Below are positions 9,937 through 32,270 of a DNA stretch of 64,000 nt, in pieces (the stretch's first letter is position 1; the number at the start of each line of letters is the position of its first letter). The notes below the pieces were generated by a model that saw only the letters and a list, made by a program, of their open reading frames with translations, ran no database searches and was not told the origin of the DNA. The position numbers and the translations under genes were made by a program. The DNA is from Natronogracilivirga saccharolytica. GTDB taxonomy: Bacteria > Bacteroidota > Rhodothermia > Balneolales > Natronogracilivirgulaceae. The stretch spans positions 62,001-126,000 of the forward strand of contig NZ_JAFIDN010000003.1 of NCBI RefSeq assembly GCF_017921895.1. The letters run 5' to 3'.

Positions 9937-11364
9937 TTAAAACATGCCAAGTTGCTGCTGAAATCCCATCACCTGATTGAACTGATCCTGTCCCTCAGTG
10001 ATGATCTGCTGCAGACGGTTGAACTCATCCCGCTGACGCTCTTCATACTGCTCCAGATAGCGTTCCTGGGCCGCAATACGGTCATCCAGGCGGCTGATCT
10101 GCTGATCGATACCGTCTTTCATGGAAGCGATGATCCCGGTACGGGCCCTGGTGTACGCCTCGGTCTGCTCTTTCATCTGCGCAATGGGAGATTCCTCGCT
10201 GGTGAAAAATTCGGTCACTTCGCCCGGACGTGTTTCCAGCATCTCGTTCAGAAGCGCGCTGTCTTCCACACGCATGGTTCCGTCATTGTCAAATCCGATG
10301 CCCATTTCTGACAAGCGAGAGAGCTGACCCTCTTCAGCACCATCCATGGGCAGCAATCCGGTCTGACGCAGGTTCAGTGTGAGATTTCGGATTGATCTCA
10401 TGTTCTGTAACTCACCGCGTTTGTCTCCTTCTGCGTCAACAAATGTTTTGTCGCGGATGGTCTTGTTCATGTCGTTGAAGGCGGAGATAAAACCATCAAC
10501 ATTGGAGCGTGCCTTGTCGGTGTCACGCTGGACGGTCATCTGCTCGGCCTGCTCGGACGGACGCATAAGTTCAAAAGTAAGCCCCGTTATTGCGTCATCA
10601 ACTACGTTTTCGCTGCGTTCAAAAGTGACCCCGTCAATCGTGAAACGGGCATCCAGCTCATCCTGCGGCACAAGGTGCGTCATACCGTCCATTGCCGCCG
10701 TGCCGTCAGCCACTGCAGCCAGGGCTCCGCCGGCATCGCTGAACTCAAGGCGGTTTTCATTGCCGGTCATCAGGCTTTGGATGGAGAATTGAACCTCTTC
10801 ATTGTTCACGCTGAACACATTGGCCTGGGCTTCTTCGCCGAAGTGCACCGAAACCTGGTCGGCAAATGACTCGAGGATTTCCCGGTTGGTCTTGTCGACC
10901 ATATTGCCGTCCTCATCTTCCCTTTGTGCGGCAACAGCCAGCGTTTCGGTCTTGTCGCCGATGGTCAGAGTGATCTCCCCGTCGCCTTCGGCCGCAAGAT
11001 CAAATCCGTCGCCCTGCATGACAGACGACAGCGCCGTGTCACGGGTAGCCAGCCGGTCGATGTCGATGTTATAGGTCGACGGCCGCTCGATGCCGTCAGC
11101 CGAGTGGACATTGACCACGCCTTCGTTGGATGACGATGTTTTAAGCGGACTGAAAGACTGATTGTCGGGATCCTGAAGTTCGGTCAGCTTGCTGTTGAAT
11201 GTGGACAGCTTGGAGCTCACATCACCCAGGGCGTCTTTGCGCTCACGGTGATCGCTCTGCTCAGCCTGAAGCTTCATTTTGGTCTGGCTTTCAAGCTGTA
11301 CCAGCTGCTGGACATATTTTTCGTATGGATTATTCTGCTGGAAAATATTTCCTACGGAACTCAT
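9937..11364 (-). CDS. fliD: Flagellar filament cap protein FliD (hook-associated protein 2)
   Basis: FliD caps the growing filament and folds incoming flagellin. The 475 residues show the N-terminal helical region (NPYEKYVQQLVQLESQTKMKL), a central part with INRIKN-free beta segments (RFTIDGVTFERSENVVDDAITGLTFEL) and the C-terminal coiled coil (IDQQISRLDDRIAAQERYLEQYEERQ) followed by the ending FNQVMGFQQQLGMF. This order is diagnostic for FliD. fliS lies 5 bases upstream, so fliS-fliD are co-transcribed. Confidence 0.94.
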   Translation of the reverse strand: MSSVGNIFQQNNPYEKYVQQLVQLESQTKMKLQAEQSDHRERKDALGDVSSKLSTFNSKLTELQDPDNQSFSPLKTSSSNEGVVNVHSADGIERPSTYNIDIDRLATRDTALSSVMQGDGFDLAAEGDGEITLTIGDKTETLAVAAQREDEDGNMVDKTNREILESFADQVSVHFGEEAQANVFSVNNEEVQFSIQSLMTGNENRLEFSDAGGALAAVADGTAAMDGMTHLVPQDELDARFTIDGVTFERSENVVDDAITGLTFELMRPSEQAEQMTVQRDTDKARSNVDGFISAFNDMNKTIRDKTFVDAEGDKRGELQNMRSIRNLTLNLRQTGLLPMDGAEEGQLSRLSEMGIGFDNDGTMRVEDSALLNEMLETRPGEVTEFFTSEESPIAQMKEQTEAYTRARTGIIASMKDGIDQQISRLDDRIAAQERYLEQYEERQRDEFNRLQQIITEGQDQFNQVMGFQQQLGMF

Positions 11365-11369
11365 AATCG

Positions 11370-11690
11370 TTACCCTTTGGCATTTTCAGCGGTGACCTGT
11401 GATGCCGACTCTTCCCAGGCATCACGAATCGGTTCGAGTATCTCCCGAATCTCTTCAAATTTCTTTTCACGAGACAAATCCTGGCAATAACGGTAGATGC
11501 TGTAGAGCTGATCGGCCGGCTGATGGTCAAAATTCAGTCCCTTGATCAGCGTGGAGAGGATTTCCCGCAGCTTTTTATCGTCTTCACGGTACGTTGACTG
11601 AATGGCCAGGTCATAGAGTTTTACCACCAGTTTGATTGGTGAGGCGTTCATGACAGCCTGACGCTGATATTGAAGTTGTGGGTCGCGCAT
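11370..11690 (-). CDS. fliS: Flagellin export chaperone FliS
   Basis: FliS binds the C-terminus of unexported flagellin and prevents its polymerisation. The 106-residue protein carries the family core: YQRQAVMNASPIKLVVKLYDLAIQS at the N-terminus, LIKGLNFD in the middle, and a terminal helix ending IRDAWEESA. It is first in the operon fliS-fliD-fliT-like-FlgM-like. A sigma-28-type promoter (11725-11751) and a sigma-54 promoter (11792-11807) both point at it, giving short (~28 nt) and longer (~90 nt) leaders. Confidence 0.92.
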   Translation of the reverse strand: MRDPQLQYQRQAVMNASPIKLVVKLYDLAIQSTYREDDKKLREILSTLIKGLNFDHQPADQLYSIYRYCQDLSREKKFEEIREILEPIRDAWEESASQVTAENAKG

Positions 11691-11889: not shown

Positions 11890-12177
11890 TACTGATGACC
11901 GGGTGGCTTACCGATCACAAAGGCATACGATTATATATACTCATGACACTACATCTGTCATTATAAACCGAAAGCTTTTTAGCATGAAATACCAATTGCG
12001 GCTTACCGTCACACAGTAGCATGATTATAGCCAACATGGGTACTGTATGTGACGATTTAAATCCAAATATTTAAACACATGAAATGTCCATGACCGGCTG
12101 AAATCCGGACACACATGCGCATGATTGAAACGGTCATGTCATTCTATCTGACATTATAAATCAAAACTTTTAAACAG
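11890..12177 (+). repeat. Three-unit leader repeat in the 5' region of the giant enzyme gene
   Basis: Three imperfect units (about 11890-11983, 11984-12078, 12079-12177) share wording with the two units before flgK. Common blocks are GGCTTACCG-TCACACAG, GCATGATTATAGCCAACATGGGTACT and CTGACATTATAAATC, ending in TTTTAAACA-N-ATGAAA. The last unit has arms CATGACCG and CGGTCATG enclosing CCGG-N7-CCGG. Mini-ORFs start at 11984 (11 codons, MKYQLRLTVTQ) and 12079 (MKCP-stop). It lies downstream of the sigma-54 promoter and would therefore be transcribed as RNA. Confidence 0.75.
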
Positions 12178-15100
12178 ATGAAACTGCAGCTGCAGCGGGC
12201 GATCGCCCTTTTGAACAGCCAAAAACCGAATCCCGACAAAGCCATAAAGACACTCCGGCCTCTGGTGAAGAAAAAGAATGCTCCCTGGCCGGTGTTTCAC
12301 TATATGGGCGTGGCGCTGATGCAGAAGGACAGGAATGGTGATGCAGCCGGATTCCTGCGCAAGGCACAGGAGCTTGGGTCCGATCAGCCGGAAACCTGGC
12401 ATTTGATGTCCGTGGCCGAGCACAAACAGGGGAATCATGAGCAAGCGGTGATATACGGGCAGGAGGCGCTGAAGCGGAAACCCGATTTCTTCAAGGCGTG
12501 GCTCAATCTCGGATCGGCCTACAGGGCGCAGGCAAAACTTGAAAGTGCGCTCAAATGCTATCAGAAAGCCAATCAGCTCGATCCGCGAAGCGCCGGTGTG
12601 GCATTTCGCATCGGATCCATCTACAAGGACCAGGGCAATCTCAGGAAAGCCATGGAGCTGTTCGATATTACCCTGAAAGTCGACCCGGAATACCATCAGG
12701 CAAATATTCAGAAAGCACTTATCCACCAGAAAAGCGGGGAATATCAGGAAGCCAGGGCCTGCCTCGGGGCCATTCTGGAAAAAATGCCACGCGATCTGGA
12801 AGCGAGAATATCGCTGGCTGAGGTGTGCCGTGCAGAAGGCCGTTTCGAGGAAGCAATTTCCCGCTACGAGGACATTTTGTCCGAAAAGCCGAAATTCGGT
12901 GCGGTGCGATCCAATTATGCCCTGACGCTTCAGGATATGGGCCGGTTCAACGAGTCGGAACAGAACTACCGGCAGGCATTTCGTGATCAGCCGGGGTCCA
13001 CGGAGTCCCTTTCCAATTACCTGATGGGACTCCATTACAATCCCGAAAGAACCCGGGAGGAAATTTTTGAGGCGCATATGGAGTGGGACAGGCACTTCGC
13101 GCCGGAAATCCGTCCGGAGCGCCCCGTGCCGGCCGATAAAAGCCCGGACCGCAAGCTGCGTGTCGGATTTATTTCCGGTGGGTTCTTCCGGCATCCGGTG
13201 GGCTGGATGATCACGGAAGCCCTGGAAAACCTGCCGGACGATCAGTTTGAAATTATTTGCTACACCAACAATAACATCAACGACCTGATCACAAAAAGGA
13301 TACACGCGGCTTCGGATGAGTGGAAACCGATTGTCGGATACAGCGATGAGGTTGTCGGACAGATGATCCGGGATGATGAGGTCGATATTCTGGTCGAGCT
13401 TTCCGGCCATTCGGCGTACAACCGGCTGAAGACGGTCGCGATGGAGCCGGCGCCGGTCATTGTGAAGTGGGTTGGCGGACTGTTCAACACCAGCGGGCTC
13501 CGCGCCATGGACTACCTGATCACCGACTGGCACGAGTCGCCCGAAGGAGAAGAGCCCTGTTACACGGAGAAGCTGATCCGCATGCCCGATGATTACATCT
13601 GCTTTCTGCCGCCCGAATACGCCCCGGAAGTGGGACCCCTGCCGGCAGAAGAAAAGGGGTACATCACCTTCGGCTGTTTCAACAATCCGACAAAGGTGAA
13701 CAGCCGGCTCATCGAAAAGTGGGCGGAAATCATGCATCGCGTGCCGGACAGCCGGTTGTTTCTCAAGAGCAAGCAATACGATACCGCGATGTTCACGGAC
13801 AGCATTATCAGTCAGATGGAATCTGCGGGCATTGCCCGTGAACGGCTGATCTTTGAGGGGATGTCGCCGCATCCGGAACTGCTGGATGCGTACAACCGTG
13901 TGGATATTGCGCTGGACCCCTGGCCGTATTCCGGCGGTTTGAGTACATGCGAGGCGCTTTGGATGGGTGTACCGGTAGTGACGCTGCCGGGTCCGACCTT
14001 TGCCGGGCGGCATTCCACGACCCATCTGATGAATGCGGGTTTGCCGGAGATGGTGACCGGCAGCCGTGAGGATTACATCGCGAAGGCGGTGGCACTGGCC
14101 TCGGACAAGGAGGCGCTTGCGGAGCTGCGGGCGGGCCTGCGGGAGCGGGTGCGGTTGTCGGCGCTGTGCGATGGTGAGCGGTTCGGGGCACATCTGGCGG
14201 TGGCGTTTCGTGAGATGTGGAAGCAGCGCGTGGCAGGATGGGAATCTGCTGATGACGAATGGCGGGATCATATTGCGGTGGAAGCGGGTGTATCTGTCAC
14301 AAAAAAATCAGCAGTTGAAAAAGAAGAAGCGGTGGCAAATGCATCCGGAAACGGTGCGCAGCAGGCATCGGGTGATATTAATGCAAACGGGAATGGGACC
14401 CTGTCACCGGAAACAAATGGTAATCCCGTGAAGGGCAGTACCGGTAACGGCTCAGTTGACAGTAATGAGGAAAAAACATGGAAAATCGAGACCAAAGACG
14501 ATGTGACCATCTGCACACCGGCCGACCTGAACATGCTGACGCCGTATGTGTTGCTGGAGCAGGAACAATGGTACGAGCCGGAGCTCCAGTTTGTGCGGGA
14601 TTACCTGAAGCCGGGCATGAGCGTGGTGGATGTTGGCGCCGGTTTCGGCGTGTACGCGCTGCCGATGGCGAAAAAAGTGGGTCCGGGAGGAAAGGTGTAT
14701 GCATTTGAGGCGGGGTCGCTGGCGCGCAGACATCTGGAGATGAGCAAGCTGGAGAACGGGTTTGAGCAGCTCGAGGTGATTGGCCGGGCAGTGTCGGAAA
14801 CACCGGGCAAAGCTGTTTTGAAGCATGGGAAGACTCCGGAGGAGAGCACGATCGTTGCTGACGGACAGGGCGATGAGGTGAACCTTGTCACGCTGGATGC
14901 CTGGTGGGAGTTTGAGGGGCGTCCGGAGGTGGGTCTGCTGAAAATTGATGTCAACGGAGAAGAGACCGCTGCATTGAAGGGGGCACAGCAGCTTGTCAAA
15001 GAGGAAAAACCACTGCTTTTGATTGCATTAAGCGGGCAGAACTCGCGTGATTTTGCGGAAGTTGCGGCCGGTTTTGGATACATCTTGTATGAATATGTAC

Positions 15101-17808
15101 CCGGGGCGAACATTTTGACGGAACATGATGCCAATGCGGGTGCTGATCCTTATCTGCTGAATCTGATAGCAATTCATCAGAGTCAGCGAGGGGCAGCTAA
15201 AGAAGCCGGATGGCTGTATGATGAGGCAGTCGCAACATATGAGCCGAAGATCGATCTCTGGAAAACGGAGCTCGCAAAACTGCCGTGGACCGATGAGTTG
15301 ATGGAGCAGTGCAAGAGTATTGAGGTTTCAGGAGACACTGAAAAGTATGTAAAGGCACTAAATTATCTGTTAGCAGCAGAACAGATTGAAGTATTTGGGG
15401 CGGCTGCCGGTCATGCCGGAAGCAAGAAGGCAAAACTGTTGCTTGCGGCGGCTCAGATGTTGATCAATTTGTACAATCAGGGGACGGAAAGTGCCCCTGT
15501 TGTGTTCACGCTGGTGCGGACATTACATGCATTGGGTAAACAAGGGCAGGCCGTGGCAGTGATGCAGAAACTGATTCAGACCACAAGCCTGGGACAGGAG
15601 AACATGAGTTTGGATCTTCCTTTCATGTTGCCGGTATCAGGCCAGGATCATGCGCCTGTCAAAACCGGTCTTGCAAAATGGCTGATGGTCAGAACAGTTG
15701 AGTCCTGGATTCAGCTCAAAGATGTGAGTACGTATCGGAGTGGTCCGCAGGAGCGTAAGATGATGGAGGTGCTTGAGGGGAATGCGGAAAAACAGCCCTT
15801 TATCATAAAAGCGGGTTTTCTTGGAAAAGGTAATGCTTATAACCTGAGCATAACTCATACATTATGGCAAAACTCGATTAATTTTAACAAATGGTTTTGG
15901 GTCGTCAAAAATGATGATAGCCCAATTGATTTGAACTTAAAAAATAAGAAGCGTAAGGTCGATATCTCTGATGAAAATAAACCTTCTACCAGGTTAATTG
16001 AAGCGGCAATTCGTAAGCTAACGGAACAAGAAGCTCCAATAATTCAAAGTGTTGCATATTATGATGTAGAGGGGAAAGCGAGAGGAGCAAGTACGGCAGT
16101 TGTTTACGAAGCTGCAGTTAAATATCGCAATCAGTCGAACATCAGATCTGCAAGTTTGCTCATAAAAGTTTTACAGAAAAAAGGATATACATTCGAGAGT
16201 GAGACAAACTACTGGGAGAGGGAGGGCTTATTTTATGAGAATCAACATTTGTTTGAAGGACATGCGCTAAAGTTTCCCAGAGCCTTAGCTATTGATAGAA
16301 ATGAAGATAGGATCGTAATGATATTGGAATATCATTACGATAAAGGTACTCCCTGGAGAAGAATTGATTATTTAGAAGCGGCAAAAGCCATAGCTGATTT
16401 TAATAAAATAGTAAAGGTCGGAGATAAGAAAGACTGGTTTTACAGGTCGAAAATGAGTCAATTCAGGAATTCATTGACTTCTGCCAGGCAAATTGCAGAC
16501 TATTTGGTCAAGATGAACATGAGGGATACCTGGGTCGATGATGCAAAAGAAATTATTCGCCTTACTGAAAAAAAAGTAAATGAAATATTCGGAAAACTAT
16601 CAGACAGGCTCCCTGAAGTTTTGTGTCACTCTGACCTGCATAGAAACAATTTGATACGAAGTAGTAATGGGCTGGTTGCAATTGACTGGGCTACTGTGGG
16701 TACAGGTTTTCCGGGTGAAGATGTCGGAAGGATGATTCATCCAAATTATGCAGCGGGCACACATTGGCCAAATTTGGACAATTTGGAAGCATGGTTTTAT
16801 GAAGTGGTAGATACCTATGTAGAGAATTGGTCTTCGGTAAATGAAGGTTATGACCCGGATGATATCGTCTCAGCTGCCAGAATAGGTTGTATTACAAGGG
16901 CGAATTTTTCCCTGTATAAGATGAAAAATACTTTAGCTGTTATTTCGAAAGGCATAAAAGAAGAAGCAACAAAGCAGTCAGTTAGCAAGGAGCTTGAAAA
17001 AGTAATCTCTTCAATGGATTTGTATTTACATCATTGCAGAATACTATTGAAAGAGGACGTTGAATCTTCAGTGGCCAAAAAAACTATCTCTACGCCAAAG
17101 AGTAATGGTTCAAGAAATAATTATAAATATCTCTTAAATGAGGGAGCTAAAAAAGACTCATTGACAAAAGCAAAAGATCATTTTGTAAAACTACTTGGCA
17201 ATATTGAGACATATCAGCCGGTTTTTATAGAGAATAAACAAATATCTTCGGGTAGATACTCTATGGAAAGAGACTTGGTGATACGAGACATTATCAGGAA
17301 AAGTAATTGTCTATCGCTAAGTGATTATGGTTGCAGCGAAGGTCATTATCTAAGAATAGGTTGTGAAGAGGGGTGTTTCTCTGTAGGAATGGATGCAAGC
17401 AAAATTAAAGTAATGACGGCACAATGGTCTCTATGTCTTAATGGGTTTGAAAATTTTGCTTTGTATACCGGAAGCTTATATGACGAACAAATCATTAAGC
17501 AAATCCCCTCAACGGATATCACAATTTCCCTTTCTGTGATTCATCATATAATTATGGAAAAGGGGTTGGAATACGCAGAACATTTGATGACAAGTTTTTC
17601 TAGGAAAACAAATTTCGGGTTAATATTTGAAATGGGTCAATCAAATGAAATCAATTTTCATTGGCACAAATTACTGCCAGACATGGGCTCCGATCCGGAT
17701 ACATGGATTGCAGAATGGTTGAATAAGGTTGGCTTTAGCGATATAGAAACAATTTGTAAAGTTCCCAGAAGAGGTGTCGATCGATATACTTTTTTTGCCA
17801 AGATATGA
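12178..17808 (+). CDS. Giant TPR / GT41 glycosyltransferase / FkbM methyltransferase / APH-type phosphotransferase / methyltransferase fusion
   Basis: One 1,876-residue frame with five parts. Residues ~1-290: TPRs. ~325-690: a GT41 (OGT/SPINDLY) catalytic region starting [17 protein letters not shown], with the nucleotide-binding block [20 protein letters not shown] and [13 protein letters not shown]. ~700-775: Asn/Gly-rich linker. ~785-1000: FkbM methyltransferase with DVGAGFG (~818) and [10 protein letters not shown] (~921). ~1000-1210: helical region. ~1215-1660: APH-like phosphotransferase with HSDLHRNN (H1484, D1486) and IDW (D1503). ~1690-1876: a second SAM methyltransferase (DYGCSEG, ~1716). 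From about 15830 the DNA becomes clearly A/T-rich, so the last two enzyme domains look added later. A sigma-54 promoter shared back-to-back with fliS-fliD suggests flagellin O-glycosylation and further decoration; that role is inferred. Confidence 0.85.
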   Translation: [1876 protein letters not shown]

Positions 17809-18210: not shown

Positions 18211-20850
18211 ATGGCGCACGTTCACTACAAGGATCTCATCAAATCAGCACCTTATGGCTATGCCTGGCACAAAATAGTCCTGGATGATCACGGACGTCCA
18301 TGTGATTACGTTTTCCTGGATGTGAATAAGGAGTTTGAACGGCTGACCGGATTGAAGGGCTCAGAGATCTGCAACCGGCCCGTGACGGAAGTTATTCCGG
18401 ATATTGCAAATGATGAATTTGACTGGATCGGCAAATATGGCGACATCGCCCTGAATAAGGGTGAATTGATGTTTGAACAGTACTTCGGTCACTTACAGCG
18501 CTGGTACCGTGTGCAGGCATATTCTCCCAAAAAGCATTTCTTTTCGACCATATTTGTCGATATTACCAATTTTAAAAGGGCGGAGGATGAGCAGGATCTT
18601 CTGGTCGACAACATCGGTACCCAGATCTGGTATCTCAAGGATTGCGAGCACTATGGCAGAGTCAACCAGGCTCATGCCGATTTTCTTGGTATTCCGAAAC
18701 ACCAAATTCAGGACAAAAGCCTGTACCAGTTTCTGAATAAAACCGAGGCCGATATTTGCTATGCCAATAACTGTCAGATTTTTGACAAAAAGGCACCGGT
18801 TACCACCGAGGAGTGGGCAACCAACGGCAAGGGCGAACGCCGTCTGCTGCGCGTCACCAAAAACCCCAAACGTGACCGCTACGGCAATGTGGAGTTCCTG
18901 GCCTGTACAGCCGAGGACATCACCGGGCGCCGGCGGGCAAAGCAGGCATTGCGCCAGAGTGAGGAGAAGTTCCGGCAGATTTTTCAGAACTCTCCCCTTG
19001 GCATATTCCACTTCAGTGCCGATGGCATCATAACCGACTGTAATGAAAATTTTGTCAAAATTATTGGATCCGAACGCGATGTTCTGGTAGGTCTGAATAT
19101 GTCTGATCTCCCTGATACCAAGGTCAAAAGCGCTGTTTCAAAGGCACTCGCTGGCGACATAAGTACCTATGACGGAGAGTACGAATCGGTTACTTCAGGA
19201 AAGATCACCCCTCTGAGAGGTATATTCGCACCGATAAAATCGGAACATCAGGCTATTAAAGGCGGGATTGGTATTATTGAGGATATTACGGATCGAAAAA
19301 AAGCAGAAAAGGAACTGAAGGTCAGCGAGCAACAGCTTCGCTCGCTTGTCGAAGGTATCGATGAGACCATTTTTGTGGTTGACTGCAACGACATTATTGT
19401 CGAGTTCAGTCAGCCTCAAAGCCGCACACTTTACAGGCCCAAAGAGGATTTTCTCGGAAAACATCTGGATGATATCGAGTTTCCCGAGCCTGCAAGGGCA
19501 AAAATTTGGAATGCCCTCAAGTACACCCGCAGAACAGGGGAATATTCAAATGTCGAATATTATGTCGACCTGCCCGATAAACGATTGTGGCATGATATGA
19601 ATATTACCGCTGCCCGTGATTATGAAGGAAACAGGATTCTTATTGGTGTCGTGAGGGATGTGACACGGCGCAAAGATGCTGAGCTTACCATTCGTGAAAG
19701 GGAAGCCAGCTACCGCCAGCTGTTTGAAGATTCACCGGTTTCGCTGATTGAAATGGACTATTCTATGGTGAAAGAACAGATGGACCGGATGAAGCTGGAA
19801 CTTGATACGGATCTTGGTTCCTGGTTGCAGAACAATCCTGAAAAAGCATTGAATCTGATGGGAGAAGTGGTTGTTTGCGACGTCAATAAAACCGCCGTCA
19901 CCGAGCATAAGGCGGATTCCAAAGAGCAGCTGTTGGATGCACTGGATCGCGTTTTTCATGAAGGTTCAATGCATAATTACATCACTGTCCTCAAGTTAAT
20001 TGCCAGGGGAGGCACCGAAGCAGCCTTTGAACACAAACACCGGGCCTTTGACGGAAGCGAGCTTATTTTTGATATCCACTGGTCGGTGATGTCCGGCCAT
20101 GAATCTTCCTATTCCAGGGTGATTATCAGCGCCATGAATATCACCGATCGCAAAAAGGCCGAAGCTCTCATCCAAAAAAACCTGCGGGAAAAAAACGTTC
20201 TGCTTTCGGAAATTCATCACCGGGTGAAAAACAACATGGCAGTGATTTCGAGTCTGCTGACACTGCAGTCGGATTTTCAGGCCGGGCAGGATCCGCTTAC
20301 CATGCTTCGGGATACGTGCAACCGCATCCGCTCCATGGCTCTTGTCCATGAACTGGTGTATGAGGACCAGAATTTTGCCGAGATCAGGTTTGATGAACTG
20401 CTTAAGCGCCTGGCTGATAACATCAAGCAGATTTACGGAAGTCATGACAAAGACATATCCGTCAACATCACCTGTGACGATCTGATGCTTGAAATGAATC
20501 AGTCCGTTCCCTGCACGCTTCTTGCCAATGAACTGATCACTAATGCCTGCTTGCATGCCTTTGATGGAAATGACAGCGGAGTTATTGATGTAATATGTCA
20601 CAAAGACGGTGAGTGCTGCAAACTGGTGGTCCGTGACGACGGAAAGGGAGTCGCTGATACAGCAGCCCTGGAAACCCCGGAGTCTTTTGGATATACGATC
20701 ATACACGGTCTTGTACAACAAATTGGGGGTATTATTGACATCGCATCCGGTGATACCGGATTGTCTGTGGAAATCCGTTTCAAACCGCACAAACCATTTT
20801 ATACCGGAATGAAAGAGAAAAAAGAGGCGGCAACTCCGGGATGCTGCTGA
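18211..20850 (+). CDS. Multi-PAS sensor histidine kinase, HisKA_2 family
   Basis: The 879-residue soluble kinase has no membrane segment. About five PAS domains run from residue ~8 to ~650, each closing with a PAC-type ending such as VEFLACTAEDITGRRRA or ILIGVVRDVTRRKDA. The transmitter is of the HisKA_2 class: EIHHRVKNNMAVISSLLTLQS, with the phospho-acceptor histidine at 669/670. It ends in an ATPase domain with NELITNACLHAF (N box) and VVRDDGKGV (G1 box). A good Shine-Dalgarno GGAGGG supports the start. No response regulator adjoins it. It is a close paralogue of the next gene. A possible sigma-28 site upstream hints at a link to motility. Confidence 0.92.
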   Translation: MAHVHYKDLIKSAPYGYAWHKIVLDDHGRPCDYVFLDVNKEFERLTGLKGSEICNRPVTEVIPDIANDEFDWIGKYGDIALNKGELMFEQYFGHLQRWYRVQAYSPKKHFFSTIFVDITNFKRAEDEQDLLVDNIGTQIWYLKDCEHYGRVNQAHADFLGIPKHQIQDKSLYQFLNKTEADICYANNCQIFDKKAPVTTEEWATNGKGERRLLRVTKNPKRDRYGNVEFLACTAEDITGRRRAKQALRQSEEKFRQIFQNSPLGIFHFSADGIITDCNENFVKIIGSERDVLVGLNMSDLPDTKVKSAVSKALAGDISTYDGEYESVTSGKITPLRGIFAPIKSEHQAIKGGIGIIEDITDRKKAEKELKVSEQQLRSLVEGIDETIFVVDCNDIIVEFSQPQSRTLYRPKEDFLGKHLDDIEFPEPARAKIWNALKYTRRTGEYSNVEYYVDLPDKRLWHDMNITAARDYEGNRILIGVVRDVTRRKDAELTIREREASYRQLFEDSPVSLIEMDYSMVKEQMDRMKLELDTDLGSWLQNNPEKALNLMGEVVVCDVNKTAVTEHKADSKEQLLDALDRVFHEGSMHNYITVLKLIARGGTEAAFEHKHRAFDGSELIFDIHWSVMSGHESSYSRVIISAMNITDRKKAEALIQKNLREKNVLLSEIHHRVKNNMAVISSLLTLQSDFQAGQDPLTMLRDTCNRIRSMALVHELVYEDQNFAEIRFDELLKRLADNIKQIYGSHDKDISVNITCDDLMLEMNQSVPCTLLANELITNACLHAFDGNDSGVIDVICHKDGECCKLVVRDDGKGVADTAALETPESFGYTIIHGLVQQIGGIIDIASGDTGLSVEIRFKPHKPFYTGMKEKKEAATPGCC

Positions 20851-21002: not shown

Positions 21003-23597
21003 ATGAAAGAGGACTATTACAAAAAGATTCTGATGGAATCTCAGGTGGGTTATGCATTCGGCAAAATAGTTCTGGATGATGACGGCCGCCCCGAAGATCT
21101 TTACATTCTCGAGGTAAACCCCGCTTTTTGCCGGCATACCGGGTTGTTGCCCGGCCAAATCGAAAATAAAAGAATCGGAAATGTCCTGCCGGATCTGCGT
21201 GCGAAGGGGTTTACATGGATCGAAAAAATAGGAGAGGTTGCATGCAATGGCAGCAGCACCATTGTTGAGGATTACGTCGCCCCGCTTGATCTCTGGCTGC
21301 GCGTGGAGCTGCAGTCACCGGAAAATATGTACGTTTCCGCAACACTGACAGATATCACCCACGAGAGAAGATTGCGGGAAGAGTACGAACTGCTGGCCAA
21401 CAATATTTCCACGCAGATATGGTATCTGAAAGATCTGGAAACCTATGGTAATGTAAACAGAGCCCACGCTGATTTCCTCGGACGTACCGTCGAGGATGTA
21501 CAGAATAAAAGCCTGTACGAAGTGCTCTCGCGCTCAGAAGCAGATATTTGTGTATCAGGTAACCAAAGGGTATTTAATGAGAAAAAAGCACTGGCCGCGA
21601 ACGAATGGGTGACCAACGCTGCCGGTGAGTCTCGTCTTCTCAGGATTACAAAAAATCCGAAACTCGCCTCTGATGGTTCGGTTCGTTTTGTCGTCTGTTC
21701 CGCTGAGGATGTCACCGAACACCATTTTGCAGAACAGGCCCTGCGCCGCAGCGAAGAACGCCTCCGCCGGATTTTTGAGCACGCCCCGTTCGGCATCATG
21801 CATGTGAATGGCAGTGGCAGGATCACAACATGCAATGACCAGTTTGTGAATATTATTGGCTCCTCACGTGAACAGCTGCTGGGGTTTGATGTTCTCAGCA
21901 TTCAAAATAAAGAAGCAAAAAAGGCGATTGCAAACGCTTTTGAGGGTAATGTTTCGGACTATGAGGGGGTGTACACGTCCATGATGTCGGGCAAGACTAC
22001 ACCGGTACGAGGCTTCTTTACCCCGTTAAAAGCAGAAGACGGCTCAGTGAACGGAATTTTGGGAATTATTGAGGATATCACCGAACGCATAGTGGCAGAA
22101 AATGCGCTAAGGGCCAGCGAAGAGCAGCTCAGATCGCTTTTCGAAACCATGGATGAGCTCATATTTATGGTCGATGAAGACCTGATATTCCGCGAGTATC
22201 ACATGCCCAAATCGCGATCATTCCGGCTGTCCGAAGATCATTTTCTGGGCAAATCGGTGTACGAGGCTTCATTCCCCCGGCCGGCCAGGGACAAGGTGAT
22301 CGAAGGGCTGAAAAAAGCAAGGGACAAGAATCGCTTCACCAATGTGGAATACTACCTCGACCTTCTGGGTGGACGCAGCTGGTATGACATGAATATCAAT
22401 CCGGTCCGCAACAAAGACGGCCGCAAGGTTTTGGTAGCCGTAGTCAGGGATGTAACTGCACGCAAACAGGCAGAACTCGACCTGATGGAGAGCGAGCAGA
22501 AATACCGGCAGCTGTTTGAGGATGCCCCCATCTCTCTATGGGAGAAAGATTTCTCGATTATAAAGCACTGGCTGAATAACCGCGAAGACCTGCCGGCGGA
22601 TAATCTGGAAACCTACTTTCTGGAAAGGCCGGAAATGGTCCGTAAGCTGTTCCAGAAAGTCAAGATTCTTGATGTCAATCAGCGGACACTCAAACTCTAC
22701 AAGGAAGAACACAAAAATTCACTGATCAAAGGATTGAACAGTATTTTTACGGAGCATACATGGAAGGATTTTGCCAGATCGCTTGCTGCCATTGCCAGGG
22801 GTGACAAGGACTTTACTGCTGAAACCCGGCACAAGACAATAGACGGCGAAATTCGTGATGTCTCCATCCACTGGAAAGTTGCTCCCGGTTATGAAAAAAC
22901 ATACGCCCGCGTGCTGCACAGCGAGTTCGACATCACCGAACAAAAAAAGGCGGAAGAGCAGATCCGCGAAAACCTCAGGGAAAAAAACATCCTGCTGGCC
23001 GAAATCCATCACCGGGTAAAGAACAACATGGCAGTGATTTCCAGCCTGCTGACACTGCAATCCGAGTTCCAGTCCGATGCCGACCCCGGAAAAATATTGC
23101 GGGATACAAGGAACCGCATCCAGTCGATGGGACTTGTCCACGAACTGGTCTATGAACATGACAATTTTGCCGAAATCAATTTCCGTCCGCTGCTGGAGCG
23201 ACTGGTACAGATCCTTTCGGATGTTTATCTCGTAAATGACAAAGAGATCTCGGTTAATGTCTCCTGCGATGATGTCCAGCTCGATCTGAACCGCTCGATG
23301 CCCTGCACCCTCATCGCCAATGAGCTGATGTCCAACGCATTTCAGCATGCATTCAGCCAAAGCGACAAGGGAAACATCGATGTCATTTTCGAAAAAAAGG
23401 CAGACACTTACCGGCTGGTGATCCGGGACGATGGTGAGGGAATCGATGATCCCGGAGACCTTGAGAATCCCGGATCGTTCGGCTATACCATTATACACGG
23501 ACTGGTGCAGCAAATCCGCGGTGACATCTCCTTCTCTGCAGAAAATCCCGGCCTCAGTGTGGAAGTGACGTTTCATACGGAACAGCCCGGAAAATGA
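21003..23597 (+). CDS. Multi-PAS sensor histidine kinase, HisKA_2 family (tandem paralogue)
   Basis: The 864-residue kinase is colinear with the preceding one. The N-terminal segment ILMESQVGYAFGKIVLDDDGRPEDLY mirrors SAPYGYAWHKIVLDDHGRPCDYV, the second PAS shares STQIWYLKDLETYGNVNRAHADFLG, and the transmitter repeats EIHHRVKNNMAVISSLLTLQS. N box NELMSNAFQHAF and G1 box VIRDDGEGI are intact. The pair clearly arose by tandem duplication and diverged mostly in the PAS sensors. The 152-base gap contains a short perfect inverted repeat GTTTTGC-A-GCAAAAC but no convincing promoter, so both genes may form one transcript. Confidence 0.92.
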   Translation: MKEDYYKKILMESQVGYAFGKIVLDDDGRPEDLYILEVNPAFCRHTGLLPGQIENKRIGNVLPDLRAKGFTWIEKIGEVACNGSSTIVEDYVAPLDLWLRVELQSPENMYVSATLTDITHERRLREEYELLANNISTQIWYLKDLETYGNVNRAHADFLGRTVEDVQNKSLYEVLSRSEADICVSGNQRVFNEKKALAANEWVTNAAGESRLLRITKNPKLASDGSVRFVVCSAEDVTEHHFAEQALRRSEERLRRIFEHAPFGIMHVNGSGRITTCNDQFVNIIGSSREQLLGFDVLSIQNKEAKKAIANAFEGNVSDYEGVYTSMMSGKTTPVRGFFTPLKAEDGSVNGILGIIEDITERIVAENALRASEEQLRSLFETMDELIFMVDEDLIFREYHMPKSRSFRLSEDHFLGKSVYEASFPRPARDKVIEGLKKARDKNRFTNVEYYLDLLGGRSWYDMNINPVRNKDGRKVLVAVVRDVTARKQAELDLMESEQKYRQLFEDAPISLWEKDFSIIKHWLNNREDLPADNLETYFLERPEMVRKLFQKVKILDVNQRTLKLYKEEHKNSLIKGLNSIFTEHTWKDFARSLAAIARGDKDFTAETRHKTIDGEIRDVSIHWKVAPGYEKTYARVLHSEFDITEQKKAEEQIRENLREKNILLAEIHHRVKNNMAVISSLLTLQSEFQSDADPGKILRDTRNRIQSMGLVHELVYEHDNFAEINFRPLLERLVQILSDVYLVNDKEISVNVSCDDVQLDLNRSMPCTLIANELMSNAFQHAFSQSDKGNIDVIFEKKADTYRLVIRDDGEGIDDPGDLENPGSFGYTIIHGLVQQIRGDISFSAENPGLSVEVTFHTEQPGK

Positions 23598-27248: not shown

Positions 27249-28268
27249 TTATCCGAGGAATCCGAGAACAGACTGCGGACCCTGGTTGGCCTGGGCCAGA
27301 GCGGATACAGCTGTCTGCTGCAGGATTTGCAATCGGATAGATTCACTTTGTTCCTTTGCGAAGTCAGTGTCCATGATACGGCTGGATGCCGACTGGTTGG
27401 CGCTGATGGACTGCGAAAGGGTGACTTCGCGAACGGTCAATGAAGATTGAGCGACACCGACTTCATTGACGCGGTCGGCCATGCTGTCGATTGCGTTGTC
27501 AATGGCGCCGATGAAATGACGGAAGTCTTCAGCAGTGGCAGCTACTGCTGGATCTGCTCCATCATTGAAAACCAGCTCTCCTTGTGCCCCGGGATCGTTT
27601 TCATGAACCACCCGAATATTAGCAATACTTGTAGTACCATCGGCGGTAACACCTTCGACTGCATCGGATGTTCCAACATCAACACCAAAAAGGGAAGCAA
27701 CATTAACTGCTTCTATGCCGGTTTGCAAGGTATCCTGAGCTCGCTCTCCAACCTGAAAGGTAAGTCCAAAAGTACCTGTTAAAGTCGGATCGCCTTCACC
27801 GGCCCATGCTTCAGAGCCATCATCAGAAATGGCACCATTCAGCAATTGAAAATCCTGGAATACCGTTTGATTTGCAATTTCATTGATGTCGTTTCCAAGG
27901 GCCTGAATTTGCTCACCAATGTATCCTCTTTCCTGCTCACCGAGGGTGTCATTGGCAGCCTGGGTGGCCAGACCTTTCATTTCGATCAGGTTATCCATAA
28001 TCGTATCGAAGCTGGACTCGGCGATGTCCAGAACGGACTTGGCATCACCGACGTTCTGCAGGGCTTGTTCCAGACCTGCAACGCGGCTGTTCAGCTTGGT
28101 TGCAATGGAATAGCCTGCGGCATCGTCTTCGGCGCGGTTGATCCGCAGACCGGTCGACAATCGGAGCTGGTTTTCAGCCAGCCCTCTGTTAATGCGATTC
28201 AGTGAGAGCTGAGCATCCAACGACTGGATGTTGGTATTCACTCTGTTAAGATCACCAAAACTTGACAT
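27249..28268 (-). CDS. fliC: Flagellin 1
   Basis: The 339-residue flagellin has a conserved N-terminal D0/D1 (NIQSLDAQLSLNRINRGLAE, STGLRINRAEDDAAGYSIA) and C-terminal D1/D0 (RVNEVGVAQSSLTVREVTLS, ending QANQGPQSVLGFLG). The variable middle is only ~100 acidic residues, so D2/D3 are minimal. AAAGGAG precedes the ATG. It is the leftmost of four tandem paralogues, each with its own sigma-28-type promoter. Residues near ~225-250 (GELVFNDGADPAVAATAEDF) are shared exactly with flagellin 3. Confidence 0.96.
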   Translation of the reverse strand: MSSFGDLNRVNTNIQSLDAQLSLNRINRGLAENQLRLSTGLRINRAEDDAAGYSIATKLNSRVAGLEQALQNVGDAKSVLDIAESSFDTIMDNLIEMKGLATQAANDTLGEQERGYIGEQIQALGNDINEIANQTVFQDFQLLNGAISDDGSEAWAGEGDPTLTGTFGLTFQVGERAQDTLQTGIEAVNVASLFGVDVGTSDAVEGVTADGTTSIANIRVVHENDPGAQGELVFNDGADPAVAATAEDFRHFIGAIDNAIDSMADRVNEVGVAQSSLTVREVTLSQSISANQSASSRIMDTDFAKEQSESIRLQILQQTAVSALAQANQGPQSVLGFLG

Positions 28269-28344
28269 GATAAACTCCTTTTTAGAAGTAAATGGTAAAA
28301 GTACTTGTTATGTGAAGCTGTAGTACTGATCAGCTTTGAAGGAG

Positions 28345-28371
28345 TTATCGGTAGGTATTACAGTACCTTTA
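28345..28371 (-). promoter_or_regulatory. Sigma-28 promoter of flagellin 1
   Basis: Minus strand TAAA (28368-28371), 15 bases, ACCGATAA (28345-28352): one mismatch to TAAA-N15-GCCGATAA. It is the best sigma-28 match of the window. The -10 element is 77 bases before the ATG. Confidence 0.9.
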
Positions 28372-28454
28372 ATAAAATTTTACTTTTTGTTACAAAAGTG
28401 TTCGTTTTCATCAAGTTTTGAAGTGTAATTGCATTCAACACTGCCCGCATGAAA

Positions 28455-28488
28455 TAAAAAAGCCCCCTGAGGTTATCAGGAGGCTTTG
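28455..28488 (-). terminator. Rho-independent terminator of flagellin 2
   Basis: Minus strand GCCTCCTGATAACCTCAGGGGGC forms a GC-rich stem-loop followed by TTTTTTATTT. It lies ~118 bases after the flagellin 2 stop. The same hairpin and 3' region recur at 29886-29919 behind flagellin 3. Confidence 0.85.
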
Positions 28489-28605
28489 CTTTCTTCCGGA
28501 TCTTCGTGATCAGATGGGGCTGAGTAAGGCGGGGTGTTGATCATCTGTTCATCCCCGTTTTTCCCGTCATCAGGTTTCCTGATCAGAATCTCCTCATCAT
28601 TCAGG

Positions 28606-29592
28606 TTATCCGAGAAATCCGAGAACGGATTGCGGTCCCTGGTTGGCTTGCGCCAGAGCGGAAGTAGCCGTTTGCTGCAGGATCTGCAGTCTCACGGATT
28701 CACTTTGCTCTTTGGCGAAGTCGGTGTCCATGATGCGACTGGACGCCGATTCGTTGGCGCTGACTGACTCGGAGAGCGTAACTTCGCGGACGCTGAGTGA
28801 TGACTGGGCAACACCGACTTCATTGACACGGTCAGCCATACTGTCAATCGCGTTGTCGATGGCGCCGATGAACTCACGGAAATCCTGAGCTCCTGCCGCG
28901 GTACCATTTCCAGACTCAAATACGAGTTCGCCTTGCTCACCGGGATCATTATCGTGAGCTACTTGAATATTTGTAATCGCTCCAGTTCCACCGGCAGTAA
29001 CACCTGTTACTTCACCTGTTGTACCAACTTCAACATCAAAGAGGTTGGCAACATTAACAGCTTCGATATCAGTAGATAATATATCCTGGGCACGTTCTCC
29101 AACCTGAAAAGTTAAACCAAGTGAATCTTCGAGTGTTGGATCTCCATCGCTAAGAGCTCCATTCAGCAATTGAAAATCCTGGAACACCGTTTGATTTGCA
29201 ATTTCGTTGATGTCATTTCCAAGAGCCTGGATTTGCTCACCAATGTATTCTCTTTCCTGCTCACCGAGGGTGTCATTGGCCGCCTGGGTGGCCAGACCTT
29301 TCATTTCGATCAGGTTATCCATGATCGTATCGAAGCTGGACTCGGCAATGTCCAGAACGGACTTGGCATCACCTACGTTCTGCAGGGCCTGCTCGAGGCC
29401 TTCCACACGGCTGTCCAGTTTGGTTGCAATGGAATAGCCGGCAGCATCGTCTTCGGCGCGGTTGATCCGCAAACCGGTCGACATTCTGAGCTGGTTGTCG
29501 GCCATGTCGCGGTTGATTCGGTTCAGTGACAGCTGGGAATCCAGCGACTGAATATTGGTATTTACTCTGTTGAGATCTCCAAAGCTTGACAT
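28606..29592 (-). CDS. fliC: Flagellin 2
   Basis: A 328-residue flagellin with the same N- and C-terminal D0/D1 domains as its neighbours (DMADNQLRMSTGLRINRAED; VTLSESVSANESASSRIMDTDFAKEQ). The variable middle (~150-240) differs: GTTGEVTGVTAGGTGAITN, NGTAAGAQDFREF. AGGAG precedes the ATG. Its promoter, first ~430 bases, last ~190 bases and 3' untranslated region are nearly identical to those of flagellin 3. Confidence 0.96.
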   Translation of the reverse strand: MSSFGDLNRVNTNIQSLDSQLSLNRINRDMADNQLRMSTGLRINRAEDDAAGYSIATKLDSRVEGLEQALQNVGDAKSVLDIAESSFDTIMDNLIEMKGLATQAANDTLGEQEREYIGEQIQALGNDINEIANQTVFQDFQLLNGALSDGDPTLEDSLGLTFQVGERAQDILSTDIEAVNVANLFDVEVGTTGEVTGVTAGGTGAITNIQVAHDNDPGEQGELVFESGNGTAAGAQDFREFIGAIDNAIDSMADRVNEVGVAQSSLSVREVTLSESVSANESASSRIMDTDFAKEQSESVRLQILQQTATSALAQANQGPQSVLGFLG

Positions 29593-29667
29593 AGTAACTC
29601 CTGTTTTTAATGTCAGTTTTTGTTTTGTTGGGTAATTCGATTCGCATGTGTTATGCGGTTACACAGG

Positions 29668-29694
29668 TTATCGAACTGCTTTGGTCTCACTTAA
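29668..29694 (-). promoter_or_regulatory. Sigma-28-type promoter of flagellin 2
   Basis: Minus strand TTAA (29691-29694), 15 bases, TTCGATAA (29668-29675). Spacing is exact and nine of twelve positions match TAAA-N15-GCCGATAA. The element and the following ~75-base leader are almost identical to those of flagellin 3. Confidence 0.8.
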
Positions 29695-29885
29695 ATAAAA
29701 CGGCGCTGTTTATGGTCCGTTTGATAAGTTTTACCTCAAGGATTTTCATTACAATGATAATCAACAGTATCAAAGCAAGGTGTAGCGTCAAAAGTCAGGT
29801 TTTGAAATTGCTGATAGCAATGCTGAGGGTGGGATATTATGATATTATTAAGTACCCATATTTTGTTAGCATTCAATTCGTTACA

Positions 29886-29919
29886 AAATAAAAGCCCCCT
29901 GAGGTTATCAGGAGGCTTT
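29886..29919 (-). terminator. Rho-independent terminator of flagellin 3 (copy of that at 28455)
   Basis: The same stem GCCTCCTGATAACCTCAGGGGGC with a T-rich tail as behind flagellin 2. About 140 bases of 3' untranslated sequence are also duplicated with few changes. Confidence 0.85.
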
Positions 29920-30037
29920 GCTTTCTTCCGGATCTTCGTGATCAGATGGGGCTGAGTAAGGCGGGGTGTTGATCATCTGTTCATCCCCGATTTTCCCGTC
30001 ATCAGGTCTTCTGATCAGAATCATCTCATCATTCAGG

Positions 30038-31027
30038 TTATCCGAGAAATCCGAGAACGGATTGCGGTCCCTGGTTGGCTTGCGCCAGAGCGGAAGTAGC
30101 CGTTTGCTGCAGGATCTGCAGTCTCACGGATTCACTTTGCTCTTTGGCGAAGTCGGTGTCCATGATGCGACTGGACGCCGATTCGTTGGCGCTGACTGAC
30201 TCGGAGAGCGTAACTTCGCGGACGCTGAGTGAAGATTGGGCTACACCGACTTCATTGACGCGGTCGGCCATGCTGTCGATTGCGTTGTCAATGGCGCCGA
30301 TGAAATGACGGAAGTCTTCAGCAGTGGCAGCTACTGCTGGATCTGCTCCATCATTGAAAACCAACTCACCTTGGGCTCCATCTGCTACAGTTCCTTCAAC
30401 TCTGATATTTGCAATATCTTCAGCACCACCTGCAGTGACACCTTCTACTGGGTCTCCACCTTGTGCATCAAAAAGCGCAGCAACGTTTACAGCTTCAATA
30501 CCTGTATCCAATGTATCCTGAGCTCTTTCACCAACCTGGAAGGTCAGTCCGAACGTGCCTGATAATGTTGGATCCCCGTCAGTATCAAGATCACCATTAA
30601 GCAATTGAAAATCCTGGAATACCGTCTGATTGGCTATTTCATTGATATCATTACCAAGTGCAGAAATTTGCTCACCAATGTATTCTCTTTCCTGATCACC
30701 AAGGGTGTCATTTGCAGCCTGTGTAGCCAGACCTTTCATTTCGATCAGGTTATCCATGATCGTATCGAAGCTGGATTCAGTAATGTCCAGAACGGACTTG
30801 GCATCACCGACGTTCTGAAGTGCCTGCTCGAGGCCTTCCACACGGCTGTCCAGTTTGGTTGCAATGGAATAGCCGGCAGCATCGTCTTCTGCGCGGTTGA
30901 TCCGCAGACCGGTCGACATTCTGAGCTGGTTGTCGGCCATGTCGCGGTTGATTCGGTTCAGTGACAGCTGGGAATCCAGCGACTGAATATTTGTATTTAC
31001 TCTGTTAAGATCTCCAAAGCTTGACAT
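30038..31027 (-). CDS. fliC: Flagellin 3 (mosaic of flagellins 1 and 2)
   Basis: A 329-residue flagellin. Its N-terminal half, promoter, last ~60 codons and 3' region match flagellin 2. A stretch encoding GELVFNDGADPAVAATAEDFRHFIGAIDNAIDSMADR (DNA ~30230-30365) is almost base-for-base that of flagellin 1. This patchwork is the mark of gene conversion between the tandem copies. The variable middle (DTDGDPTLSGTF, AQGGDPVEGVTAGGAEDI) is partly its own. D0/D1 ends are intact, so the protein should be functional. Confidence 0.96.
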   Translation of the reverse strand: MSSFGDLNRVNTNIQSLDSQLSLNRINRDMADNQLRMSTGLRINRAEDDAAGYSIATKLDSRVEGLEQALQNVGDAKSVLDITESSFDTIMDNLIEMKGLATQAANDTLGDQEREYIGEQISALGNDINEIANQTVFQDFQLLNGDLDTDGDPTLSGTFGLTFQVGERAQDTLDTGIEAVNVAALFDAQGGDPVEGVTAGGAEDIANIRVEGTVADGAQGELVFNDGADPAVAATAEDFRHFIGAIDNAIDSMADRVNEVGVAQSSLSVREVTLSESVSANESASSRIMDTDFAKEQSESVRLQILQQTATSALAQANQGPQSVLGFLG

Positions 31028-31099
31028 AGTAACTCCTGTTTTTAATGTCAGTTTTTTTGTTGGGTAATTCGATTCGCATGTGCTATGCGGTTACACAGG

Positions 31100-31126
31100 T
31101 TATCGAACTGCTTTGGCCTCGCTTAA
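31100..31126 (-). promoter_or_regulatory. Sigma-28-type promoter of flagellin 3
   Basis: Minus strand TTAA (31123-31126), 15 bases, TTCGATAA (31100-31107). It matches the flagellin 2 promoter in both elements and in most of the spacer. Confidence 0.8.
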
Positions 31127-31167
31127 ATAAAAAAACAAAAGCCCTCCGGCCGTCGCCGGAGGGCTTT
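31127..31167 (-). terminator. Rho-independent terminator of flagellin 4
   Basis: Minus strand GCCCTCCGGC-GACG-GCCGGAGGGC is a perfect 10-bp stem with a 4-base loop, followed by TTTTGTTTTTTT. It lies 114 bases after the flagellin 4 stop. A second perfect stem (CCGGTGA/TCACCGG, 31250-31270) sits right after the stop codon. Confidence 0.9.
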
Positions 31168-31280
31168 GTTCAGACAGAGAGTATCCTTGGGCGGATGGGG
31201 ATCTTGGGCGGAATCCCTGTTCTTCTGCCTGCTATATGATTGCTGCTGCCCGGTGATGCCCGTTCACCGGACGAGTTTCT

Positions 31281-32270
31281 TTATCCGCCAATGAAACCGA
31301 GTACAGACTGCGGACCCTGATTGGCTTGCGCCAGTGATGATGTAGCCGTTTGCTGCAGAATCTGCAGACGAACGGATTCACTTTGCTCTTTGGCAAAATC
31401 GGTGTCCATGATCCGGCTGGCCGCCGCCTCATTGGCACTTATTGACTGTGACAACGTCACTTCACGAACGGAGAGCGATGACTGGGACATGCCGATGTCA
31501 TTTACACGCTCGGACATCCGGTTGATGGCTTCGTCGACGGCACCTATGAACGCCCGGAAATCGGTCGCTTCGGCCGCATCGCCATCTTCGTCAATTTGAC
31601 TATTGAATACCAGGCTTCCCTGGGTTCCGGGTCCGGTATCGGTTGTATCGAGAATGATATTATCAATAGTGGATCCATCCGCACCATCGCCCGCTGTAAA
31701 GCCAGTGATGCCATTCTCATCACCATCAAACAGCGCCGCCACATTGACCGGACTCAGATTTGCTTCCAGAACATCCTGGGCGCGTTCGCCGACCTGGAAT
31801 ACCAGGGTAAGGTCCGTCTCAAAATCACCATCATCGCCGTTCAGCAACTCGTAATCCTGAAATACCGACTGATTGGCGATTTCATTGATATCATCGCCGA
31901 GAGCGAAGATCTGCTCTCCGATGTATTTACGTTCTTCAGCGCCGAGCGTGTCGTTGGCCGCCTGGGTGGCCAGTCCCTTCATCTCAATCAGACTGTCCAT
32001 GATTGTATCGAAGCTGGATTCGGCTATATCGAGGACCGACTTGGCATCACCGACGTTCTGCAGCGCCTGATCGAGTCCCGTGACCCGGCTGTTCAGTTTT
32101 GTTGCGATGGAATATCCGGCTGCATCGTCTTCGGCCTTGTTGATCCGCAGACCGGTTGACATCCGCATCTGATTCTCTGCAAGGTTCCGGTTGATGCGGT
32201 TCAGCGACAGCTGGGAGTCGCGGGACTGGATGTTGGTGTTGATCCGGTTTAAATCTCCAAAACTTGACAT
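31281..32270 (-). CDS. fliC: Flagellin 4 (most diverged copy)
   Basis: A 329-residue flagellin with the same D0/D1 frame. It differs more than the others (NIQSRDSQLSLNRINRNLAE; RVNDIGMSQSSLSVREVTLS; ending GPQSVLGFIGG) and has a distinct Asp-rich middle (FDGDENGITGFTAGDGADG). Its promoter and leader are also different from those of flagellins 2 and 3, including three TTGCCCAATG repeats, so it is probably regulated separately. TAGGAG lies before the ATG. Confidence 0.96.
   Translation of the reverse strand: MSSFGDLNRINTNIQSRDSQLSLNRINRNLAENQMRMSTGLRINKAEDDAAGYSIATKLNSRVTGLDQALQNVGDAKSVLDIAESSFDTIMDSLIEMKGLATQAANDTLGAEERKYIGEQIFALGDDINEIANQSVFQDYELLNGDDGDFETDLTLVFQVGERAQDVLEANLSPVNVAALFDGDENGITGFTAGDGADGSTIDNIILDTTDTGPGTQGSLVFNSQIDEDGDAAEATDFRAFIGAVDEAINRMSERVNDIGMSQSSLSVREVTLSQSISANEAAASRIMDTDFAKEQSESVRLQILQQTATSSLAQANQGPQSVLGFIGG

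Follow-up and report, generated by a model that had tools for sequence, protein, structure and literature searches.

The 1876-residue protein encoded at positions 12178–17808 of the window (the whole stretch of 64,000 nucleotides of Natronogracilivirga saccharolytica DNA analysed here) is, as judged from its sequence and those of its relatives, probably a modular, polymorphic enzyme of flagellin glycans rather than a unique assembly line. The conserved front part probably glycosylates the filament protein, whereas the back part, exchanged horizontally and different from species to species, probably determines which decoration results. The best explanation as a whole, judged slightly better than an even bet, is a conserved core with an exchangeable tail that modifies flagellin, in which the tail of the present protein would add a methyl-phosphate cap.

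The gene and its flagellar locus

The gene and the neighbours that bear on its function are as follows.

12178..17808, + strand: whole gene, predicted modular flagellin-glycosylating enzyme, 1876 aa; intact ORF with orthologues in 39/245 genomes of the class
11370..11690, − strand: fliS, flagellin chaperone, divergent neighbour; named by reading, order conserved across orthologous loci
9937..11364, − strand: fliD, filament cap; named by reading, order conserved across orthologous loci
27249..32270, − strand: four flagellin genes (339, 328, 329 and 329 aa), likely substrates; translations with typical flagellin termini

The single unbroken frame reported in the first-pass annotation is borne out: it runs from an ATG start through 1876 codons with no internal stop, on a contig of 455,622 bases. 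The domains that had been listed (TPR, GT41, FkbM, phosphotransferase and a second methyltransferase) were all recovered by Pfam, NCBIfam and PDB searches, the last lying below Pfam cut-offs, and two features are new, a helical domain at residues ~1000–1204 and a break in composition near position 15790. An antisense ORF of 705 aa (12154–14271) was discounted as a shadow ORF of the gene itself.

The gene diverges from a block consisting of fliS, fliD, a fliT-like gene, an FlgM-like gene and NtrC. Almost every orthologue region inspected has this block, with or without the fliT-like gene, next to the orthologue; the exceptions are L100, in which the order differs, and contig-end cases such as L111. 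The orthologues of named records belong mostly to Balneolaceae, Fodinibius, Aliifodinibius and Balneolia MAGs, which places the window in a Balneolales genome; throughout the 39 genomes they are found nearly always in this same flagellar neighbourhood. Flagellins related to those of the window adjoin the orthologue in many relatives, often as one to four genes directly after it, and in a Desulfobacteraceae MAG (L054) a fused GT41–FkbM relative directly precedes flagellins, fliD and fliS (named by reading). This conserved synteny makes flagellin the likely substrate, in agreement with the target proposed earlier. An acceptor other than flagellin, such as FliD, the hook protein or an exopolysaccharide, is quite unlikely; GT41 acceptors are varied, gene order is the sole link to flagellin and fliD is equally close, but the orthologues adjoin fliS and are often followed directly by one to four flagellin genes, the fused Desulfobacteraceae relative likewise precedes flagellins, fliD and fliS, and enterobacterial GT41–methyltransferase proteins sit in flagellin glycosylation islands (PMC4875605).

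The four flagellin genes of the window are closely similar and in tandem; in the relatives, between one and four lie near the orthologue. Directly downstream of the gene are two tandem, similar, PAS-containing histidine-kinase-like proteins of 879 and 864 aa (18211–20850 and 21003–23597; named by reading), which a 745-aa protein downstream of the orthologue in L027 resembles, also by reading. Between flgL and the NtrC-type regulator lies a 463-aa TPR protein (6092–7483), with a similar-sized protein at this position in many Balneolales loci; its identification as a glycosyltransferase was rejected because Pfam finds TPRs only.

The conserved core

Residues 1–1204, which alone are conserved among the orthologues, comprise four domains.

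12178..13017, + strand: TPR superhelix, residues ~1–280; Pfam TPR families
13096..14238, + strand: GT41/SPINDLY-like catalytic domain, residues ~307–687; PF13844 at 148.8 bits, matches to 5djs and SPINDLY, His339 and Lys506
14482..15177, + strand: core FkbM methyltransferase, residues ~769–1000; TIGR01444, PF05050, AF2 model and Foldseek
15178..15789, + strand: conserved helical domain closing the core, residues ~1000–1204; conserved in 25 orthologues, all-helical in AF2

The glycosyltransferase domain far exceeds the PF13844 cut-off of 25 bits, follows N-terminal TPRs and retains His339 and Lys506, which align with SPINDLY residues and are presumably the catalytic positions of OGT and SPINDLY. 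The earlier designation as an OGT-type enzyme holds for the GT41 family as such; within the family, the domain is closer to the bacterial protein 5djs (E 4e-86) and to SPINDLY (E 5e-80) than to animal OGT. The protein thus shares with SPINDLY and bacterial OGT-like enzymes (AtSPY 7y4i/8dtf; 5djs) the TPR superhelix and a GT41 domain with aligned His and Lys, and differs from them in being fused to further enzymes. Because a TIGR01472 search of the genome gave no GDP-mannose 4,6-dehydratase (Gmd) above the cut-off, GDP-fucose is not assured as the GT41 donor, a weak argument against it.

The FkbM domain is supported by PF05050 (49 bits, cut-off 22.7) and TIGR01444 (76.5 bits, cut-off 37.7), has intact VVDVGAGFG and KIDVNG motifs, the SAM motif included, and is conserved in the orthologues. 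The region that follows has no Pfam match; an AF2 model built from 25 orthologues (pLDDT 89.6) gives FkbM and then an all-helical domain, and the top Foldseek match of this model is the FkbM structure 2py6. In Proteobacteria, a gene of its own encodes FkbM together with the helical domain (L047, L049 and L053; Rhodocyclales, Rhodospirillaceae and Sulfuritalea), and in L047 and L053 it is near GT41 genes.

In the mechanism that is inferred here, in its steps, their order and its acceptor alike, the TPRs would bind flagellin, alone or together with its chaperone, the first sugar would be placed on Ser/Thr by the GT41 domain, and O-methylation, of that sugar or at a different site, would fall to the core FkbM domain. 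The attached glycan would then be modified by the C-terminal module.

Fusions of this general kind are already known. Enterobacterial flagellin islands, which vary between strains, encode SPINDLY-type GT41 proteins with attached methyltransferase domains close to flagellin genes, and these proteins resemble the present one in both fusion and location; the variability described in the accessible part of that report is between island genes, and that part describes neither a kinase module nor exchange of tails within a gene (PMC4875605). The earlier view that the combination is unrecognised is therefore too broad for the GT41–methyltransferase part, and stands for the kinase–methyltransferase tail, of which no example on a flagellin-modifying enzyme was found in the literature searched, which included few subscription papers.

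Exchange of tails at a fixed junction

15784..15796, + strand: exchange junction, residues ~1203–1207; end of homology to all full-length orthologues and drop in GC

Full-length orthologues align with the present protein from residue 1 to residues 1202–1209 and then stop or fade, with short, weak extensions past the junction in a few, and the stop is the same for orthologues of 41 to 65% identity. In pairs of near relatives, identity falls from 65–100% to 5–25% within 20 residues of the junction, and the DNA behaves likewise. Near position 15790 of the window, GC falls from 0.55 to 0.37 and GC3 from 0.64 to 0.34; in 24/24 orthologues, too, the GC of the tail is lower than that of the core (Wilcoxon p 2e-5). 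In the best explanation, the present tail, which is foreign in composition, came by horizontal transfer and was fused to the core at residue ~1205. A PHROGs search with the tail gave no match, so no phage origin is shown, and a plasmid tblastn search gave one weak Deinococcus phosphotransferase.

The abrupt change in composition, together with the restriction of the kinase–methyltransferase pair to this one among the genomes searched, would also fit an assembly chimera at ~15790 or a recent non-functional fusion. This is highly improbable, because the frame runs for 672 residues past the junction without a stop and with its motifs intact, over 20 further genomes carry differing tails at the same junction, and a related phosphotransferase domain is fused to the same glycosyltransferase in another genome (G004).

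The tails, classified by BLAST against one another and by Pfam searches of representatives, are of the following kinds.

GT1_2: L027, L090, L092
GT2 plus GT1_2: L094, L095, L097
GT2 plus other: L093
GT2 plus methyltransferase: L088, L098, L107
GT4: L028 (truncated at the end of its contig)
GT56/WecF-like: L030, L089, L104
second FkbM: L033, L096, L100, L101, L102, L106, L108
unknown plus protein-kinase-like: L032, L091
WbdD-like methyltransferase plus kinase: L029 (WbdD E 8e-8)
APH, with core FkbM absent: L035
APH plus methyltransferase: the present gene only, one genome

On a quick tree of the glycosyltransferase core, 18 changes of tail class are needed over 29 rows, and unrelated tails occur in near relatives (L029 and L032; L088 and L089; the present gene, L027 and L028). 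The last two domains, which had been read as steps of an assembly line, are thus not a fixed part of the protein; they represent one C-terminal module among many that are exchanged. The GT56 module is fused in L030, L089 and L104, and in L105, L109 and L112, which belong to one genus, a shorter core gene is immediately followed by a separate TPR–GT56 gene, an argument for joint action of core and module. An extra 914-aa gene in L095 (2808–5552) and L097 (2277–5021), consisting of an FkbM core, the helical domain and a GT1_2 module without TPR–GT41, resembles a free-standing spare cassette.

Polymorphic proteins such as those of contact-dependent inhibition have a conserved N-terminal part to which unrelated C-terminal domains are joined at one point. 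The present family is alike in this arrangement; its swapped parts, however, are glycan-modifying enzymes rather than toxins, and immunity genes are absent. The more specific proposal, that replacement of the 3′ third at a fixed point beside fliS alters filament chemistry in the style of polymorphic toxins and yields methyl-phosphate-capped flagellin in this organism, is plausible but falls a little short of even chances. If it is true, module exchange would switch the filament among extra sugar, extra methyl, phosphate and methyl-phosphate. In the literature searched, again with few subscription papers, no flagellin-modifying gene was found that swaps unrelated C-terminal enzymes at a single junction. 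The tails would also provide a natural collection of enzyme modules that can replace one another on a shared core.

The kinase–methyltransferase tail

15991..17037, + strand: APH-type phosphotransferase, residues ~1272–1620; PF01636, similarity to the tail of G004/L035, motifs
17203..17805, + strand: WbdD-like methyltransferase, residues ~1676–1876; weak PDB match to WbdD (E 6e-4), shared motifs

The first domain of the tail scores 42.8 bits against PF01636 (cut-off 23.2), contains CHSDLHRNN (1483–1491), which fits HxDxxxxN, and the downstream Asp in AIDW (1501–1504), and is 36–37% identical over ~349 aa to the tail of G004/L035. The second lies below Pfam cut-offs (PF08242, 19.8 against 30); its best PDB match is WbdD, weakly, with which it shares GC-x-G (here within DYGCSEG), LSV-x-HHI and an E..E..F.W....PD stretch. 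An AF2 model built for the tail on two aligned sequences had a pLDDT of 32.8 and was set aside. As to whether the architecture recurs elsewhere, the core does (39/245 genomes of the class), and the complete tail was found in the present genome alone among 129 genomes of the order, 245 of the class and 395 of the phylum, its APH half occurring also in G004; a search of named genomes gave no relative of the tail.

In E. coli O9a, WbdD adds a phosphate to the terminus of the O-antigen chain and methylates it (PMC3482155), and ORF6 of Klebsiella O7, which contains a methyltransferase and a kinase like AmiN (amicoumacin kinase, of the aminoglycoside-kinase fold), forms methyl-phosphate on rhamnose in vitro (PMC11231755). 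By analogy with these enzymes, the APH-type kinase would phosphorylate a sugar hydroxyl and the WbdD-like methyltransferase would methylate that phosphate. The tail is best read as adding a methyl-phosphate cap to the flagellin glycan, at about even odds, in view of the WbdD match, the WbdD-like methyltransferase–kinase tail of L029 and the Klebsiella precedent. Methylation of an independent side chain, as had been suggested, is less likely, because the likeness to WbdD points to the kinase-added phosphate.

Several differences speak against the methyl-phosphate reading or limit the analogy. The WbdD match is weak, and WbdD (PDB 4azs, 4ax8, 4uw0) caps an O-antigen polysaccharide with a protein-kinase-like kinase located C-terminal to its methyltransferase, followed by a coiled-coil ruler and a membrane helix; the present kinase is of the APH type, precedes the methyltransferase and stands behind a GT41 core, and the protein ends with the methyltransferase at residue 1876. 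ORF6, compared by description only, is likewise a multi-module glycan enzyme with a methyltransferase and an AmiN-like kinase, and differs in acting on O-antigen and in having GT2 modules, the order methyltransferase–kinase and a coiled coil.

The main rival to the cap is that the same modular enzyme would place phosphate and methyl separately, as a sugar O-phosphate and an independent O-methyl (or N-methyl) group. A linker of ~55 residues lies between the two domains, each of which is complete, and L035 has an APH kinase without any methyltransferase after it, which implies that a product bearing only the phosphate is viable at that locus. Because the methyltransferase is closest to one that methylates phosphate (PMC3482155) and is joined with the kinase on one tail, this rival is considered rather unlikely.

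A third reading derives from flagellin glycans of the C. difficile Type A and P. aeruginosa b-type, which, like the predicted product, bear phosphate and methyl groups, in their case with N-methylated threonine; FgtA/PA1091 of PAO1 is, moreover, a known glycosyltransferase–phosphotransferase fusion in one protein (PMC11833859, PMC10714395). The present tail could accordingly form a phospho-N-methyl-amino-acid or amino-alcohol substituent, and the APH fold includes choline and thiamine kinases, to which it has weak matches. The reading is very unlikely, however, since PA1091 and CD0240/CD0244 have GT2 rather than GT41 domains and the known route, which adds N-methylated threonine phosphate, needs a TagF-like CDP-dependent phosphotransferase and a cytidylyltransferase; a PF04464 search of the genome, which is 97% complete, found no TagF-like protein, and neither gene was seen beside the present one.

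Tail type and neighbouring sugar genes

Nucleotide-sugar genes lie immediately downstream in 10/13 loci with glycosyltransferase tails and in 1/11 loci with kinase or methyltransferase tails (Fisher p 0.0013; p 0.0055 with close pairs collapsed), a small count that is phylogenetically non-independent beyond the collapsed pairs and in which several neighbours are named by reading alone. The neighbours differ with the tail.

GT56 tails: DegT aminotransferase
GT1_2 tails: FdtA and RmlA-like (the latter named by reading); also DegT plus WbqC
GT2 tails: CDP-dideoxysugar-like set

In many relatives, the module would thus be a second glycosyltransferase supplied by the neighbouring nucleotide-sugar genes. 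The present locus has no such genes downstream; ATP and SAM would be all that its tail requires, and these would suffice for a methyl-phosphate cap.

Phages, hosts and predators encounter flagellin glycans at the cell surface, where these structures vary from strain to strain, and the usual account of this diversity is the exchange of entire gene islands. In the present family, a single gene with a fixed junction seems to be the source of the diversity, and tail type seems to predict the neighbouring sugar genes, so that glycan structure would be partly predictable from sequence. Methyl-phosphate on flagellin, of which no description was found in the literature searched, is a directly testable prediction for a poorly studied phylum.

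The WecD-like identity of a 256-aa neighbour in L089 was dropped, its Pfam match being absent. In L098, L100, L101 and L107, sulfotransferase-like genes (named by reading) directly follow the gene, behind second-FkbM and GT2-plus-methyltransferase tails, which suggests that flagellin glycans at these loci may be sulfated.
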